In this document: positions 8,225-26,020 of the stretch, one piece after another | Layout: each line of letters starts with the position of its first letter | Numbering within the stretch: the stretch's first letter is position 1 | Source: a virus | Virus record (IMG/VR): IMGVR_UViG_3300046463_000118 | Span: 1-26,020 of that record | Direction: 5' to 3' (one strand) | DNA length: 26,020 nt | Made by a program: the position numbers and the translations under genes | Notes under the pieces: model-generated | Databases searched by the model: none | Seen by the model: only the letters and a program-made list of their open reading frames with translations | Told to the model about the DNA's origin: nothing

Positions 8225-9787
8225 ATGAATTTTCAAATCACACAAGCGGCACTCGATGCGTTGGCGGTCACTCCGGGATTGAGGCCCACCCTGTATCGCC
8301 TCGGTAGCGGCACTGGCTACACACCGGTTCCCGGCGATATCGCTATCCACGGTGGTCTGATCTATCAGGGATCGCTGACCACACAAGACGTCGTCAGTGG
8401 TAACATCATCCGCCAATCGGTGGTGCTGCCGTATGACTTGGGTCCCTTCGATTTCGGTGAAGTCGGCCTGTACACCGAGAGCGGTATGCTGTTTGCATTG
8501 GGCGTGTGTGACGTGCTCATGCACAAGACGGTGAACAGCGACACCACGAAAGCCAATTCCATTCGCTTCGACGCGTATCTGTCGAGCGTCGGCTCCATGT
8601 ACAATATGTGGCTGGACGTTGCGGAAACTAGCAACGCCTTCCAGATGGCAGTGCTGGATTCGGTTGATCAGTTGCCGATGGCGGCTAACAGTGTTCCGGC
8701 TGCGTACATCATTCGCGGCCGCAATCTGGCAGACAGCTTCCGTGCCTACACCGATGGTTACGGTCTGTGGAACTTCGACGAGTACGTGGTAACGCCGACT
8801 CCGAGCACGGTAGTGTCGGCAGACATGAACAGCATAACGCTGCCGATCTCGGATTACTACGGATACACGAGTGTCACGTCGGATGGTGACCTGATCGTAG
8901 AGTTTATCACGGGCGCTTGCTACTCGACGCCGCGTATCGTCCACCAAGCTGTCATCAGCGGGGCGAACATCACGCTGATCTATAAGACCCCGCTGCAAGT
9001 ATCACCGCAGCCGGGCGACCAGTTCCTGATCTTCAAGCGACGCACGGGCACGCAGTACGTGTTGCCCATCGCGAGCTCGACGATTCTGGGTGGTGTGAAG
9101 ATTGGTTCTGGTATCACCATCTCGGCAGACGGCACGATCAGCGCAGCAGGTGGTGGCGGAGGCGGCTCGGATTACACTCTTCCGGCGGCAACGACGTCTG
9201 TTCTGGGTGGCGTGATCGTCGGCGCTGGATTGGCTGTGCAGCTCAATGGTCTGATCAACGTGAAGGCCGCAACGTCGGCGCAGATCGGTGGTGTGAAAGC
9301 CGGAACCTCGATGACCATCGCAGGTGACGGAACGATCGACTACAATCTTCCGAAAGCGACTGCCGTGGTATTGGGTGGTATCAAGGTAGGTACGGGCTTG
9401 ACAGTCGCCGCAGACGGTACGCTGTCAGCAGTGGCTACGACCAATCCGTACGACATGCCGATTGGATACATCGGGGCAATGCCCGCCAACAATGCGCTGA
9501 TGGCGCGTGTGATGTTCGCACGTCAAGTTCAGTTCCCGAATAACTTCACAGGTTCGGTGGCGAGTGCAGCGACGGCGGCGACGGGTACGGTTGTCCTGTC
9601 CGTGCGTAAGAACGGTACGGAAGTCGCACAGGTGACGTTCTCAGCTGGACAAGCGACTGGTGCAGTAACCGGTGCCAGCGTCACGTTCAACGCTGGTGAC
9701 GTGCTTACTCTGTACACGACCCAAACGATTGCCGATGCCACGTTGGCGAACATGAGCGTCACGCTGACGGGTACGCGCCTGTCCTAA
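8225..9787 (+). CDS. Tail-collar-type fibre protein
   Basis: 520 aa. Seen: residues ~1-145 match the tail-collar fibre N-terminal domain, with LYRLGSGTGY, GPFDFGEVGLYTESG at 73-87 and an FDAYLS segment; the fibre at 13676-15154 on the other strand has the same domain. A Gly-rich linker follows (GGGGGG near residue 317), then four LGGVK/IGGVK-type repeats and an Ala/Thr-rich C-terminal domain that aligns with the end of the first gene in the window (MARVMFARQV, ADATLANMSVTLTG). Family knowledge: the N-terminal domain attaches to the baseplate or tail and the C-terminal part is distal. ATG at 8225 follows AAAGAGAACCAT. Confidence 0.85.
   Translation: MNFQITQAALDALAVTPGLRPTLYRLGSGTGYTPVPGDIAIHGGLIYQGSLTTQDVVSGNIIRQSVVLPYDLGPFDFGEVGLYTESGMLFALGVCDVLMHKTVNSDTTKANSIRFDAYLSSVGSMYNMWLDVAETSNAFQMAVLDSVDQLPMAANSVPAAYIIRGRNLADSFRAYTDGYGLWNFDEYVVTPTPSTVVSADMNSITLPISDYYGYTSVTSDGDLIVEFITGACYSTPRIVHQAVISGANITLIYKTPLQVSPQPGDQFLIFKRRTGTQYVLPIASSTILGGVKIGSGITISADGTISAAGGGGGGSDYTLPAATTSVLGGVIVGAGLAVQLNGLINVKAATSAQIGGVKAGTSMTIAGDGTIDYNLPKATAVVLGGIKVGTGLTVAADGTLSAVATTNPYDMPIGYIGAMPANNALMARVMFARQVQFPNNFTGSVASAATAATGTVVLSVRKNGTEVAQVTFSAGQATGAVTGASVTFNAGDVLTLYTTQTIADATLANMSVTLTGTRLS
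9201..9220 (+). repeat. Direct repeat copy B (20 bp), fibre gene
   Basis: Identical to bases 1-20. It lies in the second LGGV repeat of the collar fibre, and flanking codons differ downstream. Together with copy A it brackets the three spikes and both small partner genes. Confidence 0.8.
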
Positions 9788-12519: not shown

Positions 12520-12915
12520 ATGCCCACTCCCGTCGTAGGCGATTGCGCAGATTGCATTGTCGCACTGCCGCAGACTCCACCCAAAGCTCTGAAGCTCGAG
12601 ACTTACGTATCCACAGGGAATCGTCTGGTGATTCAGCGTGTCGGCACGTTCACCGGATACTATCCCTCCAATTCGGACCCGATGGTCCACGCAGGGCCAA
12701 TGGCACCGGCGAGCAGCTATACCGTGCCTTCACCCGTTTCTGGTCTGTTTGTAGCTACAAATCAGCCTCTTAGCGTGACTGTGACGAAGGCTTCGGTCTC
12801 CATGACGTTCATTGTGAACCGTATGCTAGTTCTCGATGATACGTATGATTCGGTATCAGTGGTCAATACCGGAACCAATACGGCAGACGCCACTATCAGT
12901 TACGTGACTCCGTAA
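12520..12915 (+). CDS. Small beta-rich protein (131 aa), paralogue of the previous gene
   Basis: Function not recognised. Seen: an excellent ribosome-binding site (AAAGGAGGCTTAA) inside the end of the previous gene; the start directly follows its stop. The N-terminus has a Cys pair (GDCADCIVALP). The region from SSYTVPSPVSGLFVATNQPL to the end parallels the preceding protein: SxTVPxPxSG, VNRMLVLDDTYDSVSVVN and a final ISYVTP strand. Both look like compact all-beta virion proteins (inference). It ends four bases before a very strong terminator, closing the plus-strand block. Confidence 0.7.
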   Translation: MPTPVVGDCADCIVALPQTPPKALKLETYVSTGNRLVIQRVGTFTGYYPSNSDPMVHAGPMAPASSYTVPSPVSGLFVATNQPLSVTVTKASVSMTFIVNRMLVLDDTYDSVSVVNTGTNTADATISYVTP

Positions 12916-12919
12916 CGTC

Positions 12920-12957
12920 AAAAGCCCCATCCGAGTGTGATATCGGATGGGGCTTTT
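12920..12957. terminator. Strong bidirectional intrinsic terminator at convergent junction
   Basis: AAAAGCCCCATCCGA (12920-12934) pairs perfectly over 15 bases with TCGGATGGGGCTTTT (12943-12957), with an 8-base loop. The A and T runs on either side provide a U-tract in both directions. It ends the plus-strand fibre block and the minus-strand tail operon, whose last gene stops at 12972. Confidence 0.93.
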
Positions 12958-12971
12958 CTCATTCTGCGCGC

Positions 12972-13139
12972 TTACAGGCTGGAGAACGGCTTGTTTAACC
13001 AAGCAGAATACTCACCGGGTTTCCACCCACGAGCTTGCTGTTCCTGGTCAACCTTTTCGCATGTGGCAACCAGCCGCCTGACATCTTCGGCAGTTGGTTT
13101 GAAGCGCTTCGCTGCGGCAATAAGTTCAGTAACCGTCAC
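12972..13139 (-). CDS. Very small protein (55 aa) downstream of the Acb1-like gene
   Basis: Seen: a GTG start at 13139 with GAGGA eight bases upstream, an open frame of 55 codons and a TAA stop just before the convergent terminator. The product is hydrophilic and likely helical: TELIAAAKRFKPTAEDVRRL in the first half, then CEKVDQEQQARGWKPGEYSA and a short WLNKPFSSL tail. It starts 17 bases after the stop of the 2H phosphoesterase gene, so it is co-transcribed with it. No family is recognised. Its place at the end of an operon next to a probable counter-defence enzyme suggests a small accessory or defence-modulating protein, but that is inference only. Confidence 0.7.
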   Translation of the reverse strand: MTVTELIAAAKRFKPTAEDVRRLVATCEKVDQEQQARGWKPGEYSAWLNKPFSSL

Positions 13140-13156
13140 GTGCAGTTCCTCAGTGA

Positions 13157-13666
13157 TTACTTCAGCGAACAGGCTTTCAGCGACTTATCGAATTCGACCG
13201 GAATCGGATTCTCCTTCAAGAAGCTGTTGGCTTCTTCCAGCCATGTACGCACTTCAGCAGTGAGCTCGACTTTCTTACCCACACTGATGTGCGGAGTGTA
13301 GTCGTCGAAGCTGTGCTTGAATTGCTGGCCGATCAGCTCGTAGTGCAAGCTCATCAACTGCGGACTGTTGATCAACGCAACGATGATCTTCTCACCGTCT
13401 CGCTCTTCCCACACCACGAACTCCGTGAGCTCACCGCTACACGTCCGATCCTTTGGCACGTTGACTTCGGTGGGGATATCACCCGCATGGTACAGCACGG
13501 TAGTATGGAACTCCGTGCTGTTGCGGGTTTTGAACGGCGCGTTCTTCAGGATGCGGCTGAGCAACACGACGGTGCTTTCCGTAGGATCGACCCACACGTA
13601 GAAACCACCCGTGGGGTCGCTGCCCGCGATTTCGTCGTACAAGATTCTTGCTGTGACTTTGTTCAC
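13157..13666 (-). CDS. 2H phosphoesterase, Acb1-like (probable anti-CBASS nuclease)
   Basis: 169 aa, GTG start preceded by TAAGGATAGCCC. Seen: two 2H signature motifs, H54-T-T56 (TEFHTTVLYH) and H126-I-S128 (YTPHISVGKK), 72 residues apart. Around them are FVVWEERDGE, ALINSPQLM, a conserved H108 in SLHYEL and a Tyr at position 10. Family knowledge: 2H phosphoesterases use paired HxT/S motifs. The phage subgroup with Y.PHI(T/S), VW..rDG and LI.SP.LM..H features matches Acb1 (T4 gene 57B product), which degrades cyclic oligonucleotides of CBASS defence. The aromatic at 10 and W86 fall where Acb1 has base-stacking residues, from memory. Alternative: a LigT-like RNA 2',3'-cyclic phosphodiesterase. 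It lies 9 bases downstream of a fibre gene. Confidence 0.78.
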   Translation of the reverse strand: MNKVTARILYDEIAGSDPTGGFYVWVDPTESTVVLLSRILKNAPFKTRNSTEFHTTVLYHAGDIPTEVNVPKDRTCSGELTEFVVWEERDGEKIIVALINSPQLMSLHYELIGQQFKHSFDDYTPHISVGKKVELTAEVRTWLEEANSFLKENPIPVEFDKSLKACSLK

Positions 13667-13675
13667 GGGCTATCC

Positions 13676-15154
13676 TTACGTGTTGAAGTTGCAAAGCTGA
13701 AGCGTGATGACGGCACCAACGTTGGCGGAGTATATGATTTCATCGCCGGGCAAGAACATTGCAGTGTCATGGTGACGTCGACCATAACCACCACCGCCGT
13801 CCTTAGTGTTGCGCGAGACCATAGCACCATTGACGGACATGGAAGTGTTGCGCGACTGGTCGTCGACCACCCATGTATGGCAGACACCCTGCTTGAATGT
13901 CCGAATCGCATTGTTGCTGGTATATCCAGGAACTGTGTTGCCGCCACCATTGATGACGATGTTGGGTGCCGTCATGGTGAACGAGATCATCGCGTTGTTA
14001 CCACCGCTCGGAGTATAGCTGTAGGGCGGAACGCTGATGGTACCGTCACCCGCTTCGTTGATTCCCGAACCGATCTTCACACCGCCGAGCTGTCCGCCGT
14101 TAGCTATCGGCAGCACATACGGAGGAGGCGGGCTGTACGGCGGATTGGCACTGATACGTCCGTTGCCATCTACAGTCAGGTAATCACCGACGATCACACC
14201 ACCGAGGCTACCCGTCGTTGCTTTCGGCAGCACATACTGAGCCGGGATCACGGGCGGATCTACGATCTGGCCGTAGTAGACAGTACCGCCGCGCTGATCG
14301 TCGCGATAGATACGCATCTGCGAGCCAATGGTCGGCGCACTCAACAGCGGATTGGCATTCAGGTAGAATCGGTAGTTGCCGCCCGACACCACCACTTGCG
14401 ATACCGAACGGAAGAACTGGTCGGCAGTCTTGATGACGAAACGTCGGTTCACAGTAGTCAGATCCGACGGGCGGAACTGTGCAGCCGGGAACTCGATCCA
14501 CGTAGTCGTGCTGTTGGCAACGGTGAACGCTGAACCGTTTGCCGACGCGTATTCCATATAGCCAGTGGATTCGAGGGACCACGTAGCATCGCTGGTGTTG
14601 GTCAGCAACGAGCTGTCCCCATGCGAGTTCAGTTCACGCACCAGAACCAGAGGGATATCCGGATTGGCCGACAGTACCGGCGGATACACATCGCTCCAGT
14701 TGTAGACTTCCCATACCGCCGGAGGGCCGTTCATAGTGTCGATCTGGAAGACTGCCGTGGACTGTTGCAGCTTCAGCAGCGCGTGGAACGTATAGCTCGA
14801 CACGACGTTGGTTCCCAGCGAGCTGTACTTCGTCTGCGGAGTTTCGAACACAGCCTTCGCGAACATCGTGCCGTCTTGCAGGAACACTGCGACCTCACCG
14901 AAGTCGAAGGGGCCAGCGTCCGGCGGGATCTCCAGAACGATGTCGATAGTGTTGTTGCCGATATTGTTGTACGTGGTGGGGACGCCGGTGTACAGCAGAT
15001 TGCCGTTGATCCCAGCGTCGGTAGTCTGCGGGTCGTACCCGTAACCACTGCCGATCTGAAAGCTGGTGATGTGGATGTACGGTCCAGTCGGGGTTGCGAC
15101 ACTGGCAACCGCCAGCCCCCGATCGGTGATGAGAAACAGTGGAGTACCTGCCAT
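13676..15154 (-). CDS. Tail-collar-type fibre protein (minus-strand paralogue)
   Basis: 492 aa. Seen: residues ~1-140 form the same collar-fibre N-terminal domain as the gene at 8225 (FQIGSGYGYDP, GPFDFGEVAVFLQDGTMFA at 81-99, FHALLKL). The middle is distinct and unassigned. Near residues 335-405 there are LGGVIVG and LGGVKIGSG repeats separated by a Pro/Tyr linker (PPYSPPPPYVLP). The C-terminal ~90 residues (FKQGVCHTWVVDDQSRN, HHDTAMFLPGDEI) differ from the other fibres and probably form the distal tip. Family knowledge: attachment through the N-terminus to the baseplate. Position after the gpI-like gene parallels P2-type H fibre genes. The ATG follows a CAAGGCATAT ribosome-binding site. Confidence 0.85.
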   Translation of the reverse strand: MAGTPLFLITDRGLAVASVATPTGPYIHITSFQIGSGYGYDPQTTDAGINGNLLYTGVPTTYNNIGNNTIDIVLEIPPDAGPFDFGEVAVFLQDGTMFAKAVFETPQTKYSSLGTNVVSSYTFHALLKLQQSTAVFQIDTMNGPPAVWEVYNWSDVYPPVLSANPDIPLVLVRELNSHGDSSLLTNTSDATWSLESTGYMEYASANGSAFTVANSTTTWIEFPAAQFRPSDLTTVNRRFVIKTADQFFRSVSQVVVSGGNYRFYLNANPLLSAPTIGSQMRIYRDDQRGGTVYYGQIVDPPVIPAQYVLPKATTGSLGGVIVGDYLTVDGNGRISANPPYSPPPPYVLPIANGGQLGGVKIGSGINEAGDGTISVPPYSYTPSGGNNAMISFTMTAPNIVINGGGNTVPGYTSNNAIRTFKQGVCHTWVVDDQSRNTSMSVNGAMVSRNTKDGGGGYGRRHHDTAMFLPGDEIIYSANVGAVITLQLCNFNT

Positions 15155-15180
15155 GATATGCCTTGAACGTTATACGTTGG

Positions 15181-16296
15181 TTAGATGAGGCGCGGGCTGA
15201 TAACGTTCAGCGGACGCGACTGCTGATCCTTCTGCAACCCGAAGAAGTAGTTGCGGATACCATAGCTAAGGTCGAAGTTCGCCGGGAATGTTCCCAGATT
15301 GGTCTTGCCCGTGGTCACAGTCAGCGCTTCGGTATCCGTCCAACTCAAATTAAGGATGCCGCTGCCGCTGCTACTGTTCGCACTGGTAGGGCTCAACACA
15401 CTCGTCGTAGTGTTGCCCGGGATGTCGGCGTACAGCTTGATGAAGTACTGACGCGCCAGAAGCTGAGCTGCTGACGGGCCCGACGCCGCGTTCATCAGCA
15501 GACCGTTGATCTGGAACTGCGATGCGAACTGCGTGAGGTTGAGGCCTAGGGCACGAGCTTGCACACCCAAGAAGCCGAAGTACGCATTGGTGTCCGTCAT
15601 GTTGACGATACTACCAACCAACTGAACGTATCCAGCGTCTGCCAGCGAAGGGCTGCGCACAACGTCGATGTTCTGCGAGTACAAGCCGATGGAAGGAGTA
15701 GCAGGTGCCGCCGGAAGGTTGAGTTTCACGCCGCGGATGATGACGGTGCCACCCAGACGATTGATACCGTTCATGTACCACTGCGCGCTGATGTTCTGCA
15801 CAGCGAACGTGATGACTGGACGGTTCAGATCAGCCATCCATGCGGGAGCCGCACCTGTGCCGATTGGAGCGCCGTTGAAGTCACCGTACTGAGCATCGCC
15901 GTAGAACGTCAGGGTTACACGTCCACCGTAGATGTTGAAGTCGGCGTTCATCGAGAACGACTGTCCGGCTTGCAGTGCGATCGTGGTATCCGCCGCGCGA
16001 TATTGACCGAAGGGGCTTTGCGACGACAGGTAGGCCAGCGCATAGTCCAGCGAGCGGAACGGTGCGGCTTTCGTGCCGTGTGCCGGATCGTCGACTCCAG
16101 TGCTGGAGTTCACGTAGTAAGCAGTCGAACCGAGCTGACCGCCGACGTACAGTCCGTCACCAACGCTCTGAATGGTATTGCCAGCACGCGCAGACAACGG
16201 GACCAGCGCCGGGTTCACAGCCTCGACGCCCGAAGTCATGGGTCGATGGACCTTCGCGGTCGCATCATACACATCAGGGTTTAAAAAGTTTGCCAT
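15181..16296 (-). CDS. Virion structural protein, probably baseplate/fibre-associated (371 aa)
   Basis: Seen: residues ~58-88 read YYVNSSTGVDDPAHGTKAAP then FRSLDYAL, a pattern typical at the start of beta-helix-type phage spike domains (a strand, D...GT, then a short helix). The middle contains VTLTFYGDAQYGDF, VIIRGVKLNLP and FLGVQARALGL segments compatible with beta-helix rungs, and the C-terminus (LSYGIRNYFFGL) is aromatic. It lacks the shared spike blocks of the plus-strand paralogues. It lies between the gpI-like gene and the collar fibre. Inference: an adaptor or spike that connects the fibre to the wedge. No catalytic residues are identifiable. ATG 16296 follows TAAATAAGAC. Confidence 0.65.
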   Translation of the reverse strand: MANFLNPDVYDATAKVHRPMTSGVEAVNPALVPLSARAGNTIQSVGDGLYVGGQLGSTAYYVNSSTGVDDPAHGTKAAPFRSLDYALAYLSSQSPFGQYRAADTTIALQAGQSFSMNADFNIYGGRVTLTFYGDAQYGDFNGAPIGTGAAPAWMADLNRPVITFAVQNISAQWYMNGINRLGGTVIIRGVKLNLPAAPATPSIGLYSQNIDVVRSPSLADAGYVQLVGSIVNMTDTNAYFGFLGVQARALGLNLTQFASQFQINGLLMNAASGPSAAQLLARQYFIKLYADIPGNTTTSVLSPTSANSSSGSGILNLSWTDTEALTVTTGKTNLGTFPANFDLSYGIRNYFFGLQKDQQSRPLNVISPRLI

Positions 16297-16303
16297 GTCT
16301 TAT

Positions 16304-17557
16304 TTACCAATATGGGGTGAACTGGCCGCTGCCCGGGACGACTTCCTTGAAGCCCTTCGGATTCACGAGCAGATTAGCGCGTTGATTGCCTACGACCTGT
16401 GACGGTATCCAGTCCGGGTGTGTACCCGTCCGTGCGGTAGGTATCACGGTGTAGACCGGGAGTCGAGCATCCGACCGACTGCTGCCCGGTACTGGAATCC
16501 AACCTACGGGTCCGTACAGAACCTTGTATCCGTCAGGCGTACCAGTCGTGGACGCGCCACCACACAGAGTGGTTGGCAACGTCGGCGTGTTGCTAACTGC
16601 CTGATCATGCAGAGTGTACGCGGGGAGCTTGTTGCCGGACTGGTCCTGAATCCAGGCAGTCGGCTGGCTCAGCATGTAGATGCTGGTGTAGTCGGTCGCC
16701 GCCGGATTGGACATCAACGCACCTGACGGGACGTTCGGAGCCGTGTCGTAAATCGGCGGACTATCCACACCCATACGCATGGTATTGGACAGCACGATTG
16801 CCGAGTCGCCCCACAGACCGATGGCTACGACCTTGGCGTCGGTGTATCCAGCTTCCAGGTGGTCAACCACCGGGATCTTGTAGTCGAGCCTGACAGACTC
16901 AAGAACCAGATTGTAGTTGGCGATTTCATAGAAGAAAGACACCAGAGTCTTGATGTCCAGCTTCTCCAAACCACCGGATGCAATCACAGCTACGTGCGTA
17001 GTCGGATACCATGTGCCGCCGTCCCAGATCGCGGTGCCGATAGTCGGGTCACCTTCGTCGTAGAAGTTCACATAGTCCTGCGTCCACTGCTTGCGCACGT
17101 CGAGGCTGGTGGACAGGCAGTAGTTGATGAAGTTGATGAACGACTCGGTGCCTTTGCCGAACCAGTATTGCCCGACCCATCGACTGATCGTCTGATAGTT
17201 GTCGCTGGTTACAACTCCGGCGTTCTGCAGCTTCATCCCCAACGCGTTCACTTGCTTGACCAGCAAGTCCCGCTCAGGCTGCGACCACGCCTCGAACGGG
17301 ATGAGCTGGCTCTCGTTGATGTACGTAGCTTCCATCTCCGGATTGGTCACCCACATATTACGCAGGTTGCCCAAGATCTCCGTCTTCTTGTCCACAGTCG
17401 TTTCGAACACTTCGTCGACCGCGTCCATGAAGTCCGTGAAGTACGGGTTGATCTCCAGATACGGCGGCAGCAGGATTGACCGCGGTGTGCGATAACCAAG
17501 CCGCCGATTCTCAGCAGGATCGTTAGACGGTGGATCCGTCGTGTATTGGTAGCTCAT
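16304..17557 (-). CDS. Baseplate protein, gpI-like (wedge/fibre-attachment)
   Basis: 417 aa. Seen: a helical N-terminal region with SILLPPYLEINPYFTDFMD and VDEVFETTVDKKTEILGNL, then ESQLIPFEAWSQPERD and ISRWVGQYWFGKGTES. This arrangement fits the tail protein I position in P2-like operons (after J, before the fibre) though direct similarity is not obvious to me. The C-terminal half is a separate beta-rich part with proline-rich turns, longer than P2 gpI (about 176 aa), so it probably includes an added domain. The ATG lies four bases after the J stop. Assignment to gpI relies on gene order and the helical N-terminus. Confidence 0.6.
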   Translation of the reverse strand: MSYQYTTDPPSNDPAENRRLGYRTPRSILLPPYLEINPYFTDFMDAVDEVFETTVDKKTEILGNLRNMWVTNPEMEATYINESQLIPFEAWSQPERDLLVKQVNALGMKLQNAGVVTSDNYQTISRWVGQYWFGKGTESFINFINYCLSTSLDVRKQWTQDYVNFYDEGDPTIGTAIWDGGTWYPTTHVAVIASGGLEKLDIKTLVSFFYEIANYNLVLESVRLDYKIPVVDHLEAGYTDAKVVAIGLWGDSAIVLSNTMRMGVDSPPIYDTAPNVPSGALMSNPAATDYTSIYMLSQPTAWIQDQSGNKLPAYTLHDQAVSNTPTLPTTLCGGASTTGTPDGYKVLYGPVGWIPVPGSSRSDARLPVYTVIPTARTGTHPDWIPSQVVGNQRANLLVNPKGFKEVVPGSGQFTPYW

Positions 17558-17560
17558 GGT

Positions 17561-19345
17561 TTATCCGTTTGACAGACGCGTCGGATTGTTGCTGTCGATA
17601 CGCTGCTGACGTTCCGCGTAGAACACGTTGATGGTCAAGCTGTTCAGCGAGTTGTAGCGAATCGGCGTGTTAGCGATCGTGGTAGGCGCACCACCCGTCG
17701 GCGTTATCGTACCGTTGTCCGTGAAGGTCAGCGGCGACGCAGCCGATACGTTAGCCAGAATACCTAGCTGGCCGCTCTTGCGACCCCAGACTTGATACGA
17801 GGCAGCGTTCACGACGGCGGGCCAATCAAGCTTGACCGCATAGCTATTTGTCACACTGACGATCTGCGGGAATGTCCAGTTGGTCGGAACACCGACTTCG
17901 CCCGTGGTAAGCGTGGTGCTGACTGCGTATGCGTATACTGACGAACCCAAACCACCACCGCCCGGAATCAGAGTGTACGTGGCATCAGGACTTTCCGGGC
18001 TGGTGACGACCATCGAACCAGTAGGAGCATTCGGGATGATGTACGATATCTGACCGGGAGCCGCAGCCGTTGCCACGTCGATCAAGTCGGACACGTAGAA
18101 GTTGGTCATCAACAAACCGGGGCGCGGAGCAAACAGCTTGGTGATCGCGCTGGTCACTGCGGTCTGCACTTGGGACGGAATAGCCGTGTTGAACACGTAC
18201 ACGTCCAGCGCCACGTCGCGCGGTACAGCGATCGGATCCTGCCACAGGAAGTACGGAGCGTACATCGTGACTGATTGGCAGTAGTCCGTGAAGCTCCTCT
18301 TCTGCGCCTGTGTCCACGGACTGCTGGTCAACCCGGCTACGCGGATAACGTTCATCCAGCGATAGTCCGAGGGGTTGATCTCACGCTGTGCCTGCGTCAC
18401 TGCATCCAGGATACCGGGATACGTGGCGATGGTTGCTTGATACTGCGACTTGGTGACCGCCGACTGGTAAGTCCCGAATCCACCGGCTGCCACGTTCTTG
18501 TAGGCGACCACAGGCTTGTCGTTGGAACCACCGGTCGGATTGGCGTTGAACGTGCCGGTGATCTGCGGGAAGCCAGTGACGCTCACTGCCTTGTTGATGG
18601 TTACGACGTTGTTCCCGTTCGAACCCTGAGTAACCGGGTACGAGATGACAACCGCGTCGTTGACCTGCGGGATGGTGCCGAACTGGCCGTTCAACCCACC
18701 CAGATTACCGAACTGAATGAGCAACCGTCCGTCAGACATAGACAGGTCAGCGTAACCGGGCACACCGTCGAAGTTCCACAAGACGCCGAACGACTTGGGA
18801 ATGATGGTGCCGTTCACCTGCACGATAACGTCCTGATCCGAGATCACGAACCCGTCTTGCGAGGACACGAACGTCTGCCGTTCAGTACCCAGACCGTTCA
18901 TGGCGTAGCTGTAGACCTTGCCTTCATACAACGTTACTGCCAATGGCACGCCCGCCATGATGGTGATCTGCGAGCGGTTGAAGAAGTACGCGCCGCCACA
19001 TGAGAACTGTGTCAGTGGCGGAAGGCTGACTGATACCGGGCTGTTGAGCGTACCGGTCACACCGGCCGGCAGATAGCGGGCGATACGCAGTCCCTGCATC
19101 TGCGTGATGGACAGGATCGAATCGTCAGCCTGTGCCGTTTCCGAGAACACGTCCTCGACTTCGCGCATGATACGGCCTTGCGCAAAGGCACCAACAGCGC
19201 TGATAAGTTCGATCAGGGTTTGCGATGTCTGCGTTGTGAGGTTGCCTACCCAAGTAGGCTTGTTCGCCAACGCCTGTTGGAACTGTGCGACGAACTGGTC
19301 AACGTCCGCGGTCAGGTCCGACAAAACGAGATTGGTGGTTGCCAT
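17561..19345 (-). CDS. Baseplate wedge protein J (gp6-like) with FN3-like insertion
   Basis: 594 aa. Seen: an N-terminal helical region (LSDLTADVDQFVAQFQQ ... ELISAVGAFAQGRIM), SITQMQGLRIARYLPAG at 78-95, and a central DGRLLIQFGN ... GTIPQVNDAVVISY segment at 205-235, where J/gp6 proteins carry an FGDG..G.IP..G..V...Y pattern. Next are REINPSDYRWMNVIRVAG and DVYVFNTAIP, the usual C-terminal end of the family. Residues ~463-553 are extra: SVYAYAVSTTLTTGEVG, VKLDWPAVVNAASYQVWGR and a final FTDNGT resemble a fibronectin type III domain, after which the J terminal strand resumes (NSLTINVFYAE). The core would build the baseplate wedge ring; the insertion may be surface-exposed. Confidence 0.85.
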   Translation of the reverse strand: MATTNLVLSDLTADVDQFVAQFQQALANKPTWVGNLTTQTSQTLIELISAVGAFAQGRIMREVEDVFSETAQADDSILSITQMQGLRIARYLPAGVTGTLNSPVSVSLPPLTQFSCGGAYFFNRSQITIMAGVPLAVTLYEGKVYSYAMNGLGTERQTFVSSQDGFVISDQDVIVQVNGTIIPKSFGVLWNFDGVPGYADLSMSDGRLLIQFGNLGGLNGQFGTIPQVNDAVVISYPVTQGSNGNNVVTINKAVSVTGFPQITGTFNANPTGGSNDKPVVAYKNVAAGGFGTYQSAVTKSQYQATIATYPGILDAVTQAQREINPSDYRWMNVIRVAGLTSSPWTQAQKRSFTDYCQSVTMYAPYFLWQDPIAVPRDVALDVYVFNTAIPSQVQTAVTSAITKLFAPRPGLLMTNFYVSDLIDVATAAAPGQISYIIPNAPTGSMVVTSPESPDATYTLIPGGGGLGSSVYAYAVSTTLTTGEVGVPTNWTFPQIVSVTNSYAVKLDWPAVVNAASYQVWGRKSGQLGILANVSAASPLTFTDNGTITPTGGAPTTIANTPIRYNSLNSLTINVFYAERQQRIDSNNPTRLSNG

Positions 19346-19353
19346 CTATTTCT

Positions 19354-19773
19354 CTACTGAGTGATCGTGAAGTTAATGGCCTGTCTTGCACTCGTGAGTC
19401 CTACACCAAACGCCAGCCTCACGTTGTAACCGGGGAGCGTCAGGTCAGGTGTGATAAACGAGTTAGACATGTCGAGGTTGATGCGCGGTTCCCAGCGAGC
19501 GATAGCCTGGATCATCGCGATCTGCATCTTGTTGGCGGTTGTCTGATCGATCGGTTCCTGCAAGAACTGATACCACATCGAGCCGTACTCCGGCTGGAAG
19601 ATGCGGGACCGGGAACCTATGGGGCAGTTGAACAGATTGAAGAGGCTACACAACTGGATAGCCTGTGCGTCAGGCAAACGATCCGGTAGATTGTTCATAC
19701 CGAACTGAGTATTTACGTCGATCCAGGTTGCGCCGTCCAACGACGTCTGGTACGAAGTGAGTTGAGCGGCCAT
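19354..19773 (-). CDS. Baseplate wedge protein gp25/gpW-like
   Basis: 139 aa. Seen: the family signature RSRIFQPEYGSMWYQFLQEP (residues 55-74; E62-Y63-G64) followed by an amphipathic helix and ARWEPRI (92-98). These are the diagnostic motifs of the gp25/gpW lysozyme-like fold of the baseplate wedge (family knowledge; it has no enzyme activity in the virion). Length is typical. The N-terminal ~50 residues include a Cys pair (C42 and C50), which is less usual. It precedes J with an eight-base gap, as in P2 (W then J). ATG after ACAGGGTATAGCA. Confidence 0.88.
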   Translation of the reverse strand: MAAQLTSYQTSLDGATWIDVNTQFGMNNLPDRLPDAQAIQLCSLFNLFNCPIGSRSRIFQPEYGSMWYQFLQEPIDQTTANKMQIAMIQAIARWEPRINLDMSNSFITPDLTLPGYNVRLAFGVGLTSARQAINFTITQ

Positions 19774-19799
19774 TGCTATACCCTGTAAAATTCGGATTG

Positions 19800-20609
19800 T
19801 TAGATCGGCTGATTCGGCTTGCCAGTCGTGCGCTCGTTGCCGTCGTCAGTGTATTCGTGATCGTGATTGTCGTAGGTGCTGCGCATGTTCCCGACGGTCT
19901 TGGAGTTACCCGAACTCGTCAAGTCGGTAATGTCACCACCGGCCGCGATCGTGGAATCCGCAACGATGGGGCCGTGGAAGTTATGTGCCGACGCAGTGTA
20001 CGTAGCGGTTCCACCTGCCTGAACCGTGATGTTACTACTGGCGTGGACCGCGGCATTGCCACTAGCGGTGATAGACGCGTTCCCAGTAACGTTGACAGTC
20101 CAGTCGCCATTGGAATTCGTGACGTCCCCGTTGACCTGCGTGATGCGCTTGCCGTTAGCGTCGATATTGATTTGCGCGCCGCCCTTCGTGATGAAGGTAT
20201 AGGTATGGTTCGTCATATCGTACTTGACGATGTTACCATCCGGGTCCTTGAAGCCCCACACGTTCGGATCGCTGAAGTCCGCGTTCACATCGGCCTTGAC
20301 TTGCACCGGCGAGTACAGAGCGTTGTGCTCATCACCGTTCTGCAACTCGATCTTGATCTTGCTGCCAACCGCCGGACTGCCGTAGGTTCCGTACTGTCCG
20401 TTAGCGCCAGTACCGAAGCCGAACGGGCTGTCCTTGTGCGGACCAATCCAGGGCACTTCACCGGCAGCGCTGTCATACAGACCAGGCACGTCGGCCTGTA
20501 CTCGATGGAGGCCTAACGGATCTTGATTGTTGGTCACGGTTCCCAAGTAATAGCCGGAGCCGTACTCCTCGGAATGTGATACTGTGTCGTTGGCTGTGTG
20601 GAAGGCCAT
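19800..20609 (-). CDS. Baseplate spike protein (gpV/gp5-like) with metal-binding tip
   Basis: 269 aa from ATG 20609; a TTG four codons... two codons upstream is in frame but less likely. Seen: residues ~17-105 form an OB-fold segment (GYYLGTVTNNQDPLGLHRVQ, VPWIGPHKDSPFG, GSKIKIELQNGD). Residues ~120-225 are repetitive and beta-helix-like (INIDANGKRI, NVTGNASITASGNAA, NITVQAGGTATYTA). The end has an H-D-H motif (YDNHDHEYTDDG) and TTGKPNQPI. In P2 gpV and Mu gp45 a terminal HxH site binds iron at the spike apex. No lysozyme domain is present, unlike T4 gp5, so wall cleavage is likely supplied by the protein at 23096. The gp27-type hub stops two bases before its start. Confidence 0.85.
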   Translation of the reverse strand: MAFHTANDTVSHSEEYGSGYYLGTVTNNQDPLGLHRVQADVPGLYDSAAGEVPWIGPHKDSPFGFGTGANGQYGTYGSPAVGSKIKIELQNGDEHNALYSPVQVKADVNADFSDPNVWGFKDPDGNIVKYDMTNHTYTFITKGGAQINIDANGKRITQVNGDVTNSNGDWTVNVTGNASITASGNAAVHASSNITVQAGGTATYTASAHNFHGPIVADSTIAAGGDITDLTSSGNSKTVGNMRSTYDNHDHEYTDDGNERTTGKPNQPI

Positions 20610-20611
20610 GA

Positions 20612-21736
20612 TCAACCCGATGTGTAATTAGAATTCGTGCCCTGCCGTACTCCCAGCAACTTCTCAGCGTAGTTGGCACCGACGATCAGAAAGGCTTTGG
20701 CTGAGATGATATACGTCCCGGCGTAGGCCACATCCTGCTTCTGGTTCTCGGTATCCACTGCGAAGGTGAAGGTATCGAACAGTTGCAACGTTGTCGGAGT
20801 GGAGATGTTGAACTCAACACTCAGACTGTACGTGTTGGCAAACCGCATGTTCTGATAGACTGCGCGCTCGTAGTTCGTGTGGACGTTGCCAACGTCGATA
20901 GCGCTGAAGGTACGGTAGCCCTGCTGGATCTTGTCTTTGATAGCTACGTTGAACAGCGGACTATTGCTGTCCGGCGTGAACGTCACCTGATCGTGCATAG
21001 TGTGCGTGTCGTCGCCAATCATCGACTGCTGGACCCGGGTATTCTGGTAGCCAGTCATCTTGTTGTTAAGCCCAGACTTGGCTTGCGGCTGGTAGTCAGT
21101 AGCTGTGAACGCGCCGATGAGGTACTGGCCCAGAACAATCTTGGCAGACGGATCAGGCAACGTGTTCACATCCTTGTACTTCATTCCCCCGACAGGATCC
21201 ACACCCAGAACCATGTATGATCCATCGTTTGCGTATCCGCGCTTCGCCACTTGCTTGGCGAACTCACCGTAGGTTCGGTTGCGAGGCATCCACAGTTGCG
21301 AATCGTTTGTGGCGGTGCCGCTATACGGGATACCGCACGTCGAAGCAATCTGAGACAGGACATCGTCGCTCGTACCACGAACACCTCCAGTAGCAGTGCC
21401 CGTCCAGTAGCGAGGGGCGTCGTAGTAACCGTCCACCTCGTACTCAAACGACGAGCCGTTGAACTGCTTCACGTGATGGAACTTGCGGAAGTTATACGTG
21501 ACTGTGGCAGCGGCTGACGGCTTGACCACCACGCGGATCGGAATGGCATCCTGCAACTCTAGCTGGTCCAGAGAGTGGATTACGTCGATGAGCTTGAAGT
21601 GCACGGTCGGAAGGAACGTCTTGGTCGAATAACCAACGTGCAGAAAGGCCAGCGTGTTAGTACCCGGATCCAGCGGATACTCCACGTTGTTGATGAAGAT
21701 TGCTACTTCCAACCTTCCGTTTACGTTATAGCCCAT
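20612..21736 (-). CDS. Baseplate hub protein (gp27/gpD-like)
   Basis: 374 aa. Seen: N-terminal VAIFINNVEYPLDPGTN and HFKLIDVIHSLDQ, an HHVKQFNGSSFEYEVDGYY beta segment, DDVLSQIASTCGIPY, then FAKQVAKRGYANDGSYMVLG (a helix of the type ...L..YA...... followed by a strand, common in the hub fold), and a C-terminal beta domain (LQLFDTFTFAV, VAYAGTYIISAKAFL) resembling the second tube-like domain. Such proteins form the trimeric hub that links tube and spike. The adjacent spike gene downstream and LysM gene upstream match hub position in other myoviruses. ATG 21736 follows GAGGATAGC. Assignment relies on features plus strong context. Confidence 0.75.
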   Translation of the reverse strand: MGYNVNGRLEVAIFINNVEYPLDPGTNTLAFLHVGYSTKTFLPTVHFKLIDVIHSLDQLELQDAIPIRVVVKPSAAATVTYNFRKFHHVKQFNGSSFEYEVDGYYDAPRYWTGTATGGVRGTSDDVLSQIASTCGIPYSGTATNDSQLWMPRNRTYGEFAKQVAKRGYANDGSYMVLGVDPVGGMKYKDVNTLPDPSAKIVLGQYLIGAFTATDYQPQAKSGLNNKMTGYQNTRVQQSMIGDDTHTMHDQVTFTPDSNSPLFNVAIKDKIQQGYRTFSAIDVGNVHTNYERAVYQNMRFANTYSLSVEFNISTPTTLQLFDTFTFAVDTENQKQDVAYAGTYIISAKAFLIVGANYAEKLLGVRQGTNSNYTSG

Positions 21737-21743
21737 GCTATCC

Positions 21744-22085
21744 TCAGATGGTCAATGTCTGCTGCTGATTGTTCTGCTGCTTCGACAGATACGCGATAAC
21801 GTCTGCCTTGGTTGGCACACGAAGCACCAATCCGACAGCAAGATCCGAGATCGGGTCGGACAGACCGTTGTATGCCAGAAGGGCGCGCCACAGTGACGTG
21901 TCCCCGAACAAGCGGAAGGCCAGACCCGGCAGATTAGCGACGTCGGTGGACTTCAGCTGGATCTGCGTGTTAGGCTGCACGTTGAAGCGCAGATTCTTGT
22001 AACCCGATTTGAACTTGTCGTAGTTGCCACTGTTATCCAGCGGCGTGTAGCGACTCCAGTTGTAATCGCCGGTGTAACCGTCCAT
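21744..22085 (-). CDS. LysM-like baseplate protein (gpX/gp53-type)
   Basis: 113 aa. Seen: residues ~46-100 carry a LysM-type pattern: DVANLPGLAFRLFGDTSLWR, LLAYNGLSDPISDLAVGL and VLRVPTKADV. The aromatic-R-x-LL-x-N...DP...L..G..L.(V/I)P pattern is characteristic of small baseplate proteins with a LysM fold such as P2 gpX and T4 gp53 (family knowledge); these are structural, not necessarily peptidoglycan binders. A Gln/Asn-rich tail (KQQNNQQQTLTI) ends it. Excellent ribosome-binding site TAGGAGATAGATC overlaps the upstream stop. Sits immediately before the hub, a common arrangement. Confidence 0.8.
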   Translation of the reverse strand: MDGYTGDYNWSRYTPLDNSGNYDKFKSGYKNLRFNVQPNTQIQLKSTDVANLPGLAFRLFGDTSLWRALLAYNGLSDPISDLAVGLVLRVPTKADVIAYLSKQQNNQQQTLTI

Positions 22086-22095
22086 GATCTATCTC

Positions 22096-23079
22096 CTACA
22101 GGTGGAAGCCGAATGAACTGGCGGCTTTCGAGGCAGCGCCAGATGCGGCTTGGAATGCGTTCTGACCGACGCTGGAAATTGCGTTCGGAATGCTGAACCC
22201 GAAGTTGTCGGCACCGCTGGTGGTCCCACCGTTAGGATTCAGGAACAACTGATCCAAGTCCGACTGGACCAGCATGAAGAGTGGCTTGAATCCGACCATC
22301 ACCTTCGCGTGGTGCGGCAAGCCAGTCTGCGCATCGAAGTTGGAACTGAACGTCTGCTGCACGTTCGTGATGACCACGCTATCGAAGAACATGTAGTTAC
22401 CGATGCGGATGCTGATCTGATTCTTGATACGCGACTTCCAGTAAGCGGACGTACCGAGACTGGGGTTCTGCTGCAAGCTCGACTGAATGGTCGAGTTAGC
22501 CCCGTCGTTAGACGTCGTTGCACTGTTACTCAACGTGCCTAGTTGCGGGGACACACCGATAGCGCTGCCTACTTGGTTGACGACATCCTTGCCAAGATTC
22601 GTCGCGGTGTTCCACAGACCTTTGGCAACCGTACCGAACGTGGTGCCAGCGCTTTTGATACCGTCAGCGGCGGTCCCCACCAACTGCGACAAGTCCATGG
22701 ACGGGCCGGGCTGTTGCAGCAATCCGAACGTGGAGTTGATTGAAGGCATCGTCAACTTCAACAGGTTCAGAATCGGCTGCCGCACGTCGGCATCCGGATC
22801 CGTTTCGGTGTGGAACTCCAATTCGATCGACAGGTCCGAGTCCTGATTACCAGACCAGATCTGAGCCGTAAGCGCTTGCACCGACAGCTTGGTGCCGAAC
22901 AACGCCATCGCGTCGTTCAGCTTCTTGTTGCCTGAGAGCCCTTGTGCGAACGGTGTGTCGTAAGTGGCACGAGCATCGAACGCGAAGCTATCAGGCATCG
23001 GTGCAGTCACGACGATAGGCTGTCCGCCGTTGCTCGGCTGCGTCTGTTGAATGACGCACAGATAATTCGTATTTGCCAT
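22096..23079 (-). CDS. Tail-tube initiator/baseplate protein (gp48/gp54-type, tentative)
   Basis: 327 aa from ATG 23079 (MANTNYLCVIQQ); a TTG four codons upstream is in frame but ATG is preferred. Seen: an N-terminal beta region with APMPDSFAFDARATYDTPFA and LSVQALTAQIWSGNQD, ending in DSDLSIELEFHTETDPDADV; a Ser/Thr/Asn-rich central linker (~130-205); then a second beta region SIRIGNYMFFDSVVITNVQQ and AKVMVGFKPLFMLVQSDL. A paired beta domain with an IGNY..(F/I)(D/P)....(T/S)NV.....F pattern is seen in tail-tube initiator or tube-end proteins. The C-terminus is Ala/Ser-rich. Position between tail lysozyme and LysM/hub supports a tube-baseplate junction role (inference). Confidence 0.6.
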   Translation of the reverse strand: MANTNYLCVIQQTQPSNGGQPIVVTAPMPDSFAFDARATYDTPFAQGLSGNKKLNDAMALFGTKLSVQALTAQIWSGNQDSDLSIELEFHTETDPDADVRQPILNLLKLTMPSINSTFGLLQQPGPSMDLSQLVGTAADGIKSAGTTFGTVAKGLWNTATNLGKDVVNQVGSAIGVSPQLGTLSNSATTSNDGANSTIQSSLQQNPSLGTSAYWKSRIKNQISIRIGNYMFFDSVVITNVQQTFSSNFDAQTGLPHHAKVMVGFKPLFMLVQSDLDQLFLNPNGGTTSGADNFGFSIPNAISSVGQNAFQAASGAASKAASSFGFHL

Positions 23080-23095
23080 TGTAAACCCCAATCAA

Positions 23096-24655
23096 TCAAG
23101 CGTTGACTGCTATGAGAACACCCTGCGGTCCGCGAATCACAGTGTTCCCGTTTGATCCGTCCTTCGAAGCGACGACGTTGCCGTTAGCCATCCGCTGACC
23201 AGGAGCTGACGCCGTGCCATTGTTAGGTTTCCCGTTGGGCTGCGTGGTCGCCCCGTTCTGCATCGCTACCTGTGCGTCTGGAAGTGACGACGTCGCACCC
23301 TGCGGATACTGCGTATTGTTTGCCAGCTGGACCAGCGATGCCTTTTCTGATTCGGCACGCTTACGCAAACCTCCCCACAGCGTAGGGCTCTTCGAGAACA
23401 GCTTCTCGGTGTTCGCGTATTTGTAGTCCTGGATAGCAGCGACGATCTGAGCGTCTGTCCACTTCTGCCAGTCCTGACCAGCCAGCGCTCCCTGCACGAC
23501 CTTCAGAGTTAGGCCACGCATCTGCACAGCCGTCGACCAGATGTTATCCTGTACCGCTGGACCACGGTCGCTGAAGTCGAAGCCCGCCTGTTTCAAGCGG
23601 CGCATCTGCACATCGTAATACTGACCCTTGATGAAGTCGTGCTGTGCCTGTCCAAACGCTGGATCCTTTGCCAGTTCCTTCCACTTGGCATTAAACGCAT
23701 CCGTGGCTGGAACCAGACCTTCGAACTCCTTACCGTATGGCGTGTTCTTCAGGAACTCCTGCACACCACCGGTCTTCGAGCTGAACTGATAGATACCGTA
23801 GGACACACCACCCAAGTCGCCAGCGCCGGACGAGATAGTGCCAGCACCACCTGAACCAGACTCGAAGCGCTTGGACGTCTGACCGAGACTCCAGGCACCA
23901 CTCTGCGTGATTGCACGAATAGGAGCACCCGCTTCGCCTGGAGCTCCGGCCGCGATAGGGGCTCCGGCCATGCCTTCCATGCGAACAGGACTTTCCAGCA
24001 GTGCATCCGCTTGATCAGCGAGATTGCTCTTATCCGCATTGGCATCTTTCAGTGAATCCTTGTTACCCTTGAAGAACATGTCCCATGCCGCGTAACCAAG
24101 GACCGCAGCACCACCCAAGACTACGATAACCGGCCACAGTTCAGGGTTCAGGCCGATGAAGCCCAACACTTCCATGAGCACTGGACGCACCAACCATTCG
24201 ACCATACCCATCATGCCGCGTACGATAACCTCTTTGACTATCCACTTCACGAAGCGAAACACTGCGCGCACTGCCGTCTTGACCACCCATTTCACGATCT
24301 TCTTCAGCGCCCACTTGGTAACGCGTTTCAGCAGACTGTCGCCTTGGCGTACCCGCTTGGCTTCAGCTTCATCAGCATCGGCCTCTTCGTCCAATCGCGA
24401 CTGGATGAACGCTTCCTTGGCTGCTGCCTGTACTCGTTCCCAGTCAGCTTGCTCGTCATCGTGATTAGCGAAGTGCGTAACCACACCCTGGAAGGTCCAG
24501 GCCATGTAGTCACGCTTCTCCTGCTCGCGAGGTACGATAACCTTGTCGATAAATGACGACAGGTCCATAAACGACTTGGGGTTATCGACCGCAGTGCTGT
24601 CTTCCTTCGGTTCTCTGAAGGGCACCAGAGCCGTTGCGTCCGTCAGAGTAACCAT
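23096..24655 (-). CDS. Virion-associated lysozyme-like protein with membrane region
   Basis: 519 aa. Seen: a charged N-terminus with coiled-coil-like Glu/Asp/Ala sequence (~65-100), then ~80 residues of Lys/Arg/Trp-rich amphipathic helices (LKRVTKWALKKIVKWVVKTA ...) ending in a hydrophobic segment WPVIVVLGGAAVLGYAAW (174-191). After an Ala/Gly/Pro linker comes a domain at ~256-440 with F264-E265-S266-G267, GTISSGAGDLGGVSYGIYQF, QAQHDFIKGQYYDVQ and NIWSTAVQM. This pattern resembles lysozyme/chitosanase-superfamily peptidoglycan hydrolases found in phage tails and VgrG C-termini; E265 is the likely catalytic acid (family memory plus inference). A Gln/Asn/Pro-rich tail ends it. Role: local wall cleavage and possibly membrane engagement during injection. 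The ATG lies one base after the preceding stop. Confidence 0.75.
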   Translation of the reverse strand: MVTLTDATALVPFREPKEDSTAVDNPKSFMDLSSFIDKVIVPREQEKRDYMAWTFQGVVTHFANHDDEQADWERVQAAAKEAFIQSRLDEEADADEAEAKRVRQGDSLLKRVTKWALKKIVKWVVKTAVRAVFRFVKWIVKEVIVRGMMGMVEWLVRPVLMEVLGFIGLNPELWPVIVVLGGAAVLGYAAWDMFFKGNKDSLKDANADKSNLADQADALLESPVRMEGMAGAPIAAGAPGEAGAPIRAITQSGAWSLGQTSKRFESGSGGAGTISSGAGDLGGVSYGIYQFSSKTGGVQEFLKNTPYGKEFEGLVPATDAFNAKWKELAKDPAFGQAQHDFIKGQYYDVQMRRLKQAGFDFSDRGPAVQDNIWSTAVQMRGLTLKVVQGALAGQDWQKWTDAQIVAAIQDYKYANTEKLFSKSPTLWGGLRKRAESEKASLVQLANNTQYPQGATSSLPDAQVAMQNGATTQPNGKPNNGTASAPGQRMANGNVVASKDGSNGNTVIRGPQGVLIAVNA

Positions 24656-24656
24656 A

Positions 24657-26020
24657 TTAGTTCACGAGGAAAGTAGAGTTCATCAATGGCAGACTATCAT
24701 CAATGCCTGACTGGAAGCCGAAGCTTGACCCACCAATCTTCGGTGAGCCTACACCCGGAGCGTTGCTACCAGTTCCAGCCGGACCACTCGGTGAGCTGGC
24801 TCCAGGCGGCGGCGTGGATGTTCCCGGATTTACCTTGACGGTAGTGCCCGGATTCGACACCGTCGAGTTGGTGATGCTACCGGCATTGGCCTGATTGTTG
24901 ACGGTCGAGCGGTTGCCTCCGACGTTAGCACTCGACGACGCGGTCACCGTAGTGTTGGCGTTGACGCTGGTAGTGTTGGAGTTGCCACCCTTGTTCGCAT
25001 AGTAGCTCGGATTGCTCGTGGCGTTGGCTACGTCGCTCTTCACCACGTTCTCATCACCGAGCTTGATGCCAAAGAAGTTGCCGATCTTCGACTGCCACGA
25101 CTGATGCGCACCCGGATCTTTGGCTTCCGGTAGCTTGGCTCCAGGATGCTGGTCCTTCAAGCCCGCGTCCATCTTTGCCAGTTCAGCCTGTACCTTCGGA
25201 TCTTGTAAGCGCTGCGCGTTGGACTTGGTGAGCTTGGCACCACCGTGATCCTTGGCTGCGTCTACTTCAGGCTGCTCGATCTTCTTGTTGAGCCCGAGCT
25301 TCTCGAGAACCCAATCAATGATCGTCTTGCCCTGATCCTTCATGTACTCCCACGAAGAGACCGCCATCTTCTTGATGTTATCCCATGTGAGGATCTTCTG
25401 AACCGTTTCCGCCAATCCAGTGAACAACTGCGGGTCCATGATCATGGCGGCCAACACACCACCCAGACCCTTCAGCCATGAACTAGTGTCGTCCTTCTCC
25501 TTCTTGGACTTCTTGCCTGAAGACTTATCGCCGAACTCATTCTTCAGGGCGCGGGCGACGGCGTTGGCATTCTCTTCAGCCTTATCCGATTCACCACTCT
25601 TGTGACCGTTCGGGTTAGCCAGGAAGTCCATCAGCTGTTTGTACAGCGACGTCTGGTCGTTAGCCGCATTGGTGATCGCAGCTTCCGTATTCGGAGACAG
25701 CGATACCACGTCTGCACCCTTGACGGTACTGCCTTGAGTAGCAGTGTTGCCTGTCGGCATATCGATGACGTCGGCTGCCGGAGCGCTATCACCTTCGCGA
25801 TTGCCGCCAACCAACGACATCGCACGATTCAGCACTGAAGGCTGTTCTGCTAGGTGCCAGTCGTTGCTCTGATACGGGACCAGCGAGTTACCGCCACCCG
25901 AAGGTCCCGACAGAAGCGGGGTATTGGCGTGATGTCCAATCTCGCCGTTCCCCATCGCAGTGCGTTCCCGCTTGATGGACGCCGCCAGATCGCGCAACGT
26001 GTGTTGAAACACGTCGGCAA
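24657..26020 (-). CDS. Virion protein, C-terminal part (5' end outside window); possibly tape-measure-related
   Basis: The frame stays open to the right edge; the GTG at 26012 is probably internal (ADV precedes it), so the true start is outside the window. Seen (numbered from that GTG): a polar region, a Lys-rich segment (DKSSGKKSKKEKDD, ~162-175), an amphipathic/hydrophobic helical stretch at ~178-240 (LKGLGGVLAAMIMDPQLF and WEYMKDQGKTIIDWVLEKLG), then a Thr/Asn/Ser- and Pro/Gly-rich low-complexity tail (~340-430) ending DDSLPLMNSTFLVN. No conserved family recognised. Upstream position relative to the tail lysozyme and hub fits a tape-measure C-terminus or a central tail protein (inference). 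Its stop is one base before the next gene's ATG. Confidence 0.65.
   Translation of the reverse strand, partial: ADVFQHTLRDLAASIKRERTAMGNGEIGHHANTPLLSGPSGGGNSLVPYQSNDWHLAEQPSVLNRAMSLVGGNREGDSAPAADVIDMPTGNTATQGSTVKGADVVSLSPNTEAAITNAANDQTSLYKQLMDFLANPNGHKSGESDKAEENANAVARALKNEFGDKSSGKKSKKEKDDTSSWLKGLGGVLAAMIMDPQLFTGLAETVQKILTWDNIKKMAVSSWEYMKDQGKTIIDWVLEKLGLNKKIEQPEVDAAKDHGGAKLTKSNAQRLQDPKVQAELAKMDAGLKDQHPGAKLPEAKDPGAHQSWQSKIGNFFGIKLGDENVVKSDVANATSNPSYYANKGGNSNTTSVNANTTVTASSSANVGGNRSTVNNQANAGSITNSTVSNPGTTVKVNPGTSTPPPGASSPSGPAGTGSNAPGVGSPKIGGSSFGFQSGIDDSLPLMNSTFLVN

Follow-up and report, generated by a model that had tools for sequence, protein, structure and literature searches.

A diverged Acb1-type phosphodiesterase gene behind the tail genes of a jumbo phage, with a probable anti-CBASS role

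Does the small gene that lies behind a set of phage tail genes encode an Acb1-type anti-CBASS enzyme, and is its place among late structural genes odd for an enzyme that degrades an alarm signal? Both points were raised by a first-pass annotation of the window, the 26,020-nucleotide stretch that makes up positions 1–26,020 of IMG/VR record IMGVR_UViG_3300046463_000118. The annotation gave the coordinates of the gene correctly and left out its strand; the ORF list and translation place it on the minus strand, with a GTG start (Table 1). Each of the motifs quoted at the time (H54-T-T56, H126-I-S128, YTPHISVGKK, FVVWEERDGE and ALINSPQLM, plus H108) was found in the minus-strand translation. The plus strand of the same interval is also stop-free, but its reading, which overlaps acb1, is unrelated. 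Because synonymous sites were saturated in most pairs of relatives, we left dN/dS ratios aside and compared pS with pN; for the window and the diverged locus L007, these were 0.84 and 0.19, respectively. Near-saturated synonymous change together with lower amino-acid change among relatives shows that purifying selection acts on the minus frame.

Table 1. Coordinates of acb1, its gene cluster and other features of the window
Feature	Position	Strand	Basis or remark
Large tandem protein, 676 aa	854-2884	+	Related to the next two; the three adjoin tail-fibre genes
Large tandem protein, 691 aa	3138-5213	+	No match to PHROGs
Large tandem protein, 924 aa	5220-7994	+	No match to PHROGs
Collar/fibre protein	8225-9787	+	Related to the 492-aa collar protein below
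DksA-like zinc-finger protein, 71 aa	11888-12103	+	PHROG 54
Probable bidirectional terminator	12920..12957	.	Perfect 15-bp inverted repeat, 8-nt loop, A-run and T-run ends
orf55, 55 aa	12972..13139	-	Downstream of acb1, last ORF of the cluster; no family
acb1, predicted 2H phosphodiesterase, 169 aa	13157..13666	-	PF23474, phmmer match to 9q2g, predicted fold
Tail-collar fibre protein, 492 aa	13676..15154	-	PF12571, 34.3 bits (cut-off 23); PHROG 327 tail protein
Rest of the co-directed tail/baseplate genes	15181..26012	-	ORFs, PHROGs, Pfam; some without a named family
Baseplate wedge	17561-19345 and 19354-19773	-	PHROG/Pfam
Baseplate assembly	19800-20615	-	PHROG/Pfam
Tail sheath/wedge-type	21744-22085	-	PHROG/Pfam
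VgrG3-like C-terminal domain protein	23096-24655	-	PF21277, 224 bits

Profile searches tied the protein to the Acb1 family. The Pfam Acb1 model (PF23474), with a cut-off of 27 bits, matched at 49.7 (E 4.2e-13), over profile positions 2–110 of 144, with the C-terminal part outside the match. RNA-ligase-type models stayed below their cut-offs: 22.9 bits against 27 for 2_5_RNA_ligase2 of the 2'-5' RNA ligase superfamily (PF13563), and 14.5 against 65.7 for the NCBIfam RNA 2',3'-cyclic phosphodiesterase (TIGR02258). A phmmer search of the PDB returned 9q2g (E 5.7e-30, residues 3–165) and 9q2y (E 1.4e-28), followed by 7t26 (E 3.6e-4). Given the values for PF23474, 9q2g and PHROG 755 (E 1.9e-22), the motifs are not a product of chance. 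PHROG 755 is labeled 'RNA ligase', though the affinity to Acb1 is clear; the record of T4 gene 57B itself bears that product name, so the label is probably historical. At E ≤ 1, PF13563 matched all 13 members of our alignment, as did Acb1, and the BcepSauron copy, with its frame taken whole, scored just over the PF13563 cut-off (29.2 versus 27). Each of seven virus records chosen for holding a relative contained one match over the Acb1 cut-off; of 14 control genomes, one (Bacillus subtilis) gave a signal below it.

The predicted structure pointed the same way. We built an AlphaFold2 model of the window protein from 11 sequences (the window and viral contigs), with a mean pLDDT of 89 and a pTM of 0.83. 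In Foldseek, the first five ranks were taken by chains of the phosphodiesterase of Burkholderia phage BCSR5 and of FBB1 Acb1 (E 1.6e-17 to 6.9e-9), the next entry being human C16orf57 (E 6.6e-5). VIA-align gave Z 23.8 for the open-lid form of the BCSR5 protein (9q2y; rmsd 1.4, 158 residues aligned), 20.3 for its closed-lid form (9q2g; rmsd 2.1, 150 aligned) and 16.0 for FBB1 Acb1 (7t26; rmsd 1.9, 135 aligned). A further match reached 15.6, compared with 11.8 for the best LigT-type chains, at an rmsd of at least 3.5. For the closed-lid and FBB1 entries, Foldseek rmsd values were larger than those of VIA-align (8.9 and 4.2–4.6, respectively). For the top matches (9q2y, 9q2g, 7t26 and 7t27), the aligned range of the model extended to residue 169 and so took in the predicted C-terminal region. 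Both programs thus placed Acb1 entries ahead of LigT-type enzymes.

In T4 Acb1, catalysis involves H44, T46, H113 and T115; Y12, W74, F107 and W147 stack on the bases, E141 contacts adenine N6, and residues 145–152 form a lid (Hobbs et al., PMC9117128). We compared these positions in an alignment of 13 rows, 10 from the window, metagenomes and jumbo phages plus T4, KVP40 and BCSR5. The catalytic tetrad of T4 aligned with H54, T56, H126 and S128 of the window protein, with three residues identical and T115 replaced by serine, the residue found in this column in 4 of 13 rows. Y23, W86 and F120 are identical to Y12, W74 and F107, and F159 stands for W147 in a gapped region aligned by sequence; two rows have leucine there. 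H54, T56, H118, H126, Y23 and W86 are invariant in all 13 rows, and H108 is present in 12. The register around E141 is uncertain, with K151 in this column of the window protein (N153 in a by-eye register, E152 being adjacent). Glutamate occupies the column only in T4 and KVP40 and in none of the 10 window, metagenome and jumbo-phage rows; BCSR5 has glutamine. Since E141 appears not to be conserved, the substrate range may differ. About 12 extra N-terminal residues are shared by the jumbo-phage rows and BCSR5, and are absent from T4 and KVP40.

With the base-stacking aromatics kept in the alignment, profile, structure and residue comparisons together support the first-pass proposal of an Acb1-type 2H phosphodiesterase with a probable anti-CBASS function. 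Neither computable finding that the annotation had named as contrary to it, a lack of Acb1 affinity or a loss of the stacking aromatics, turned up. Judged by its sequence and predicted model, the jumbo-phage gene almost certainly encodes a diverged Acb1, an enzyme of a known kind.

We then considered where the gene lies. Only 9 nt separate the stop codon of the collar gene from the start codon of acb1 (measured on L002, which is identical over acb1), and the shared direction and spacing suggest that the co-directed tail genes and acb1 form one operon. The earlier placement of acb1 at the end of a tail operon was accurate in that the gene sits near the cluster end, after the tail genes, but orf55 still follows it. 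orf55 is present in L002 and L003, which are nearly identical to the window, and absent from four other records searched. Of five records searched for a partner role, the twin record alone contained it, and we rejected it as a conserved partner of acb1. An inverted repeat divides the acb1 cluster from the converging plus-strand genes. A consensus terminator scan reported no terminator, despite this repeat at 12920–12957.

Other features of the window deserve mention. The VgrG3-like protein is perhaps a cell-wall-cutting tail enzyme. The two collar/fibre proteins lie on opposite, converging strands and share 29% identity over residues 3–365 of the plus-strand protein (measured on L004). The gene for the DksA-like protein lies close to the acb1 cluster, at its convergent end, and homologues occur within ~4 kb of acb1, on either strand, in L005/L012 (BcepSauron), L007, L009, L011 and L013. 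Among the large tandem proteins, those of 676 and 691 aa show 34% and 47% identity, respectively, to the product of the third gene over most of their length.

Scanning viral contigs with a profile yielded 12 loci. The acb1 sequence of the window recurs unchanged in L002, which lies on a contig of 217,605 bases, and in L003, with flanking proteins 98–100% identical over the stretches present; L004 is a near-identical cut copy of the same locus. The diverged loci L007–L012 (43–70% identity) include BcepSauron as L012. In all six, acb1 comes after a homologue of the collar gene, and in all six an additional ORF of 164–214 aa, which the window lacks, intervenes. This ORF ends between 4 nt inside acb1 and 112 nt before it. 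It matches a tail-fibre or tail-fibre-assembly PHROG in L007, L010 and L011, and unknown-function families in the remaining three, the BcepSauron match being weak. L014 (Motura) and L015 carry acb1 outside the tail place, behind a gene of 1,528–1,551 aa and ahead of a 129-aa gene; in Motura, the gene before acb1 encodes an SNF2-type helicase, and the major capsid gene starts 3.6 kb downstream of acb1. L013 begins 46 bases before acb1 and was left out of the count. Of the eight diverged loci open to checking, six therefore have the tail place and two, the Motura-like ones, do not. In T4 and KVP40, the tail-fibre chaperone gene and acb1 (57B) overlap at the end of the former; the gene 1 kinase and tail gene 3 come earlier, and the gene next to acb1 in T4 encodes the internal virion protein ipI. 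The T4 neighbors were already displayed by Hobbs et al. (PMC9117128).

More distant relatives are placed differently. Those of Klebsiella phage Miami and Erwinia phage pEa_SNUABM_54 lie among other or unnamed genes. The relative in Erwinia phage pEa_SNUABM_47 (L020, 4947-5393), annotated 'putative structural protein', matches at E 9e-3 with 56% of the query covered, and has mainly NAD-metabolism neighbors (NMN adenylyltransferase, nicotinamide phosphoribosyltransferase, Sir2-like and Nudix). A relative in a Pseudomonas putida phage has a head-tail connector gene ~2.5 kb upstream. Placement with tail or late genes is thus no universal rule, as the Miami, pEa_SNUABM_54 and pEa_SNUABM_47 cases show. 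In a phage collection, 223 of 50,697 records matched the window protein; among the best 60 and another 60 spread over the 223, the match reached back to residue 3 or 4 only in records of BcepSauron, BcepSaruman and Motura. Megablast of window positions 1–25000 against this collection found no DNA-level relatives. A pattern-limited search of bacterial and archaeal genomes gave 64 stretches that fit the pattern, none of which was confirmed, and no prophage or cellular copy of this branch was seen.

Is the timing implied by this placement odd? Late phage proteins are the likely triggers of CBASS. T4 Acb1 activity is reported from ~15 min of infection, matching the late onset of CBASS (Hobbs et al., PMC9117128). 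A late position of acb1 is therefore to be expected. The first-pass annotation had called such timing odd unless the gene also had an early promoter or its product were packaged. Neither part of that view found support: late placement is shared by related phages and T4 and fits late CBASS onset, so the timing is unremarkable and calls for neither an early promoter nor packaging. A sigma-70 consensus scan of 12850–15300, which leaves other promoter types outside its scope, returned two sites, versus 1.9 expected in shuffles, and no minus-strand site upstream of acb1. With neither site upstream on the acb1 strand, we rejected an early promoter of its own for acb1, as far as the sigma-70 consensus goes.

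The family, the predicted fold, the aligned catalytic residues and most of the stacking ones, purifying selection and tail linkage in the nearest relatives were all observed. We consider it highly probable that the product is Acb1, a 2H phosphodiesterase that works without metal, presumably with an anti-CBASS role and co-transcribed with late genes. If it works as its T4 and FBB1 homologues do, the scissile phosphate of a cyclic di- or trinucleotide would be attacked by the two HxT/S motifs, Y23, W86, F120 and F159 would stack on the bases, and the C-terminal lid would shut over the ligand. Opening of the ring would abolish the CBASS signal before effectors kill the cell, and late co-transcription would have enzyme and alarm appear together. 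That the window protein hydrolyzes cyclic nucleotides and counters CBASS is suggested by analogy: nine further acb1 genes were assayed by Hobbs et al., and each product cleaved 3'3'-cGAMP and cAAA (PMC9117128).

The same 2H chemistry could conceivably serve RNA end-healing, with the enzyme opening 2',3'-cyclic phosphates and a phage RNA ligase then resealing cleaved tRNA or mRNA. Such a role for jumbo-phage 2H enzymes was proposed by Iyer et al. 2021 (PMC7824862), according to whom the Burkholderia phages carry all three ligase types. The name of PHROG 755 agrees with it, as does the predicted fold, which also resembles LigT-type enzymes (Z ~11.8). We searched four records for ligases (those of BcepSauron and L011, the 217.6-kb twin G001 and Motura, G005). 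BcepSauron, whose acb1 just passes the PF13563 cut-off, matched Rnl1 (PF09511), Rnl2 (PF09414) and RtcB (PF01139), and the L011 record matched RtcB only. The twin, which is possibly incomplete, and Motura matched none of the three, yet the gene is kept in both; in each of the four records, acb1 was the sole PF13563 match at E ≤ 0.1. The lack of a ligase match in the possibly incomplete twin makes RNA-end repair less likely. The sub-threshold scores of the window protein with RNA-ligase-type 2H profiles and its retention of the Acb1 stacking residues also argue against this explanation, which we regard as improbable.

Chances are slimmer still that the 2H phosphodiesterase belongs to NAD/ADP-ribose chemistry (ADP-ribose 1'',2''-cyclic phosphate type) or targets a different nucleotide alarm. 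Among the fold matches is the plant Appr>p phosphodiesterase (1fsi, 1jh6), and the pEa_SNUABM_47 relative sits inside an NAD-gene cluster, but the plant structures ranked well below Acb1, that relative is a weak one, and no NAD-gene family was present among the window proteins scanned. Least probable of all is that Acb1 is packaged in the virion and enters with the DNA. Packaging would explain the linkage to structural genes, since acb1 is linked to tail or head genes in two groups of jumbo phages and has tail-related neighbors in T4-like ones; ipI as the next gene in T4 and the 'structural' name of the pEa_SNUABM_47 relative fit as well. However, that name is annotation alone, and the published T4 activity (Hobbs et al., PMC9117128) appears only ~15 min into infection, not at injection.

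A co-transcribed, diverged Acb1 therefore remains our preferred reading. A bolder extension of it, which we think doubtful, is that acb1 at or near late structural clusters (57A–57B in T4-like phages, collar/fibre-assembly/acb1 in Saruman-like phages, capsid in Motura) acts as a built-in timer, made only with late proteins that are likely CBASS triggers; the jumbo branch, with its N-terminal extension and no E141, might also no longer require adenine and act on further cyclic dinucleotides, for example c-di-GMP. Two points are mildly new: acb1 is repeatedly linked to tail or head genes, and E141 is apparently missing. The tail linkage may already have been published. More broadly, this work offers a simple, testable account of the timing of an anti-CBASS enzyme, made alongside late genes rather than early, and adds diverged Acb1 members for structure–function work.

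How does the window protein compare with known systems? LigT/ThpR enzymes carry two H-x-T/S motifs. The window protein shares the 2H superfamily fold with these RNA 2',3'-cyclic phosphodiesterases, but their profiles fall under cut-off and their structure match is clearly weaker. With the Acb1 enzymes of T4 (57B) and FBB1 (7t26, 7t27), it shares the 2H fold, the HxT/HxT-S motifs and the equivalents of Y12, W74 and F107, and its gene, like T4 acb1, is placed behind tail-related genes. It differs from T4 Acb1 in its low identity (26%), the W147 to F change, the apparently non-conserved E141 column and the N-terminal stretch of ~12 residues.

The BCSR5 phosphodiesterase, deposited as 'Anti-CBASS protein Acb1' (9q2g with closed lid, 9q2y with open lid), is a nearly full-length relative with 34% identity in the 13-row alignment and the same fold; a literature search found no paper describing these entries. 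The two proteins are alike in N-terminal extension, catalytic positions and C-terminal region, and unlike at S128 (T in BCSR5), F120 (H) and H108 (N). The closed-lid entry fits the window model less well than the open one. Closer is the BcepSauron/BcepSaruman gene (43% identity), which has the same place at the end of the tail cluster; unlike the window, BcepSauron has its 214-aa gene between the collar gene and acb1. Labels for this gene range over 'prohead protease', 'RNA ligase' and 'hypothetical protein', and BcepSauron_269 (L005) is a 'prohead protease' in MK552141 and an 'RNA ligase' in NC_049851, both probably wrong. The comparison thus corrects the labeling of a jumbo-phage family as one that probably belongs with Acb1.
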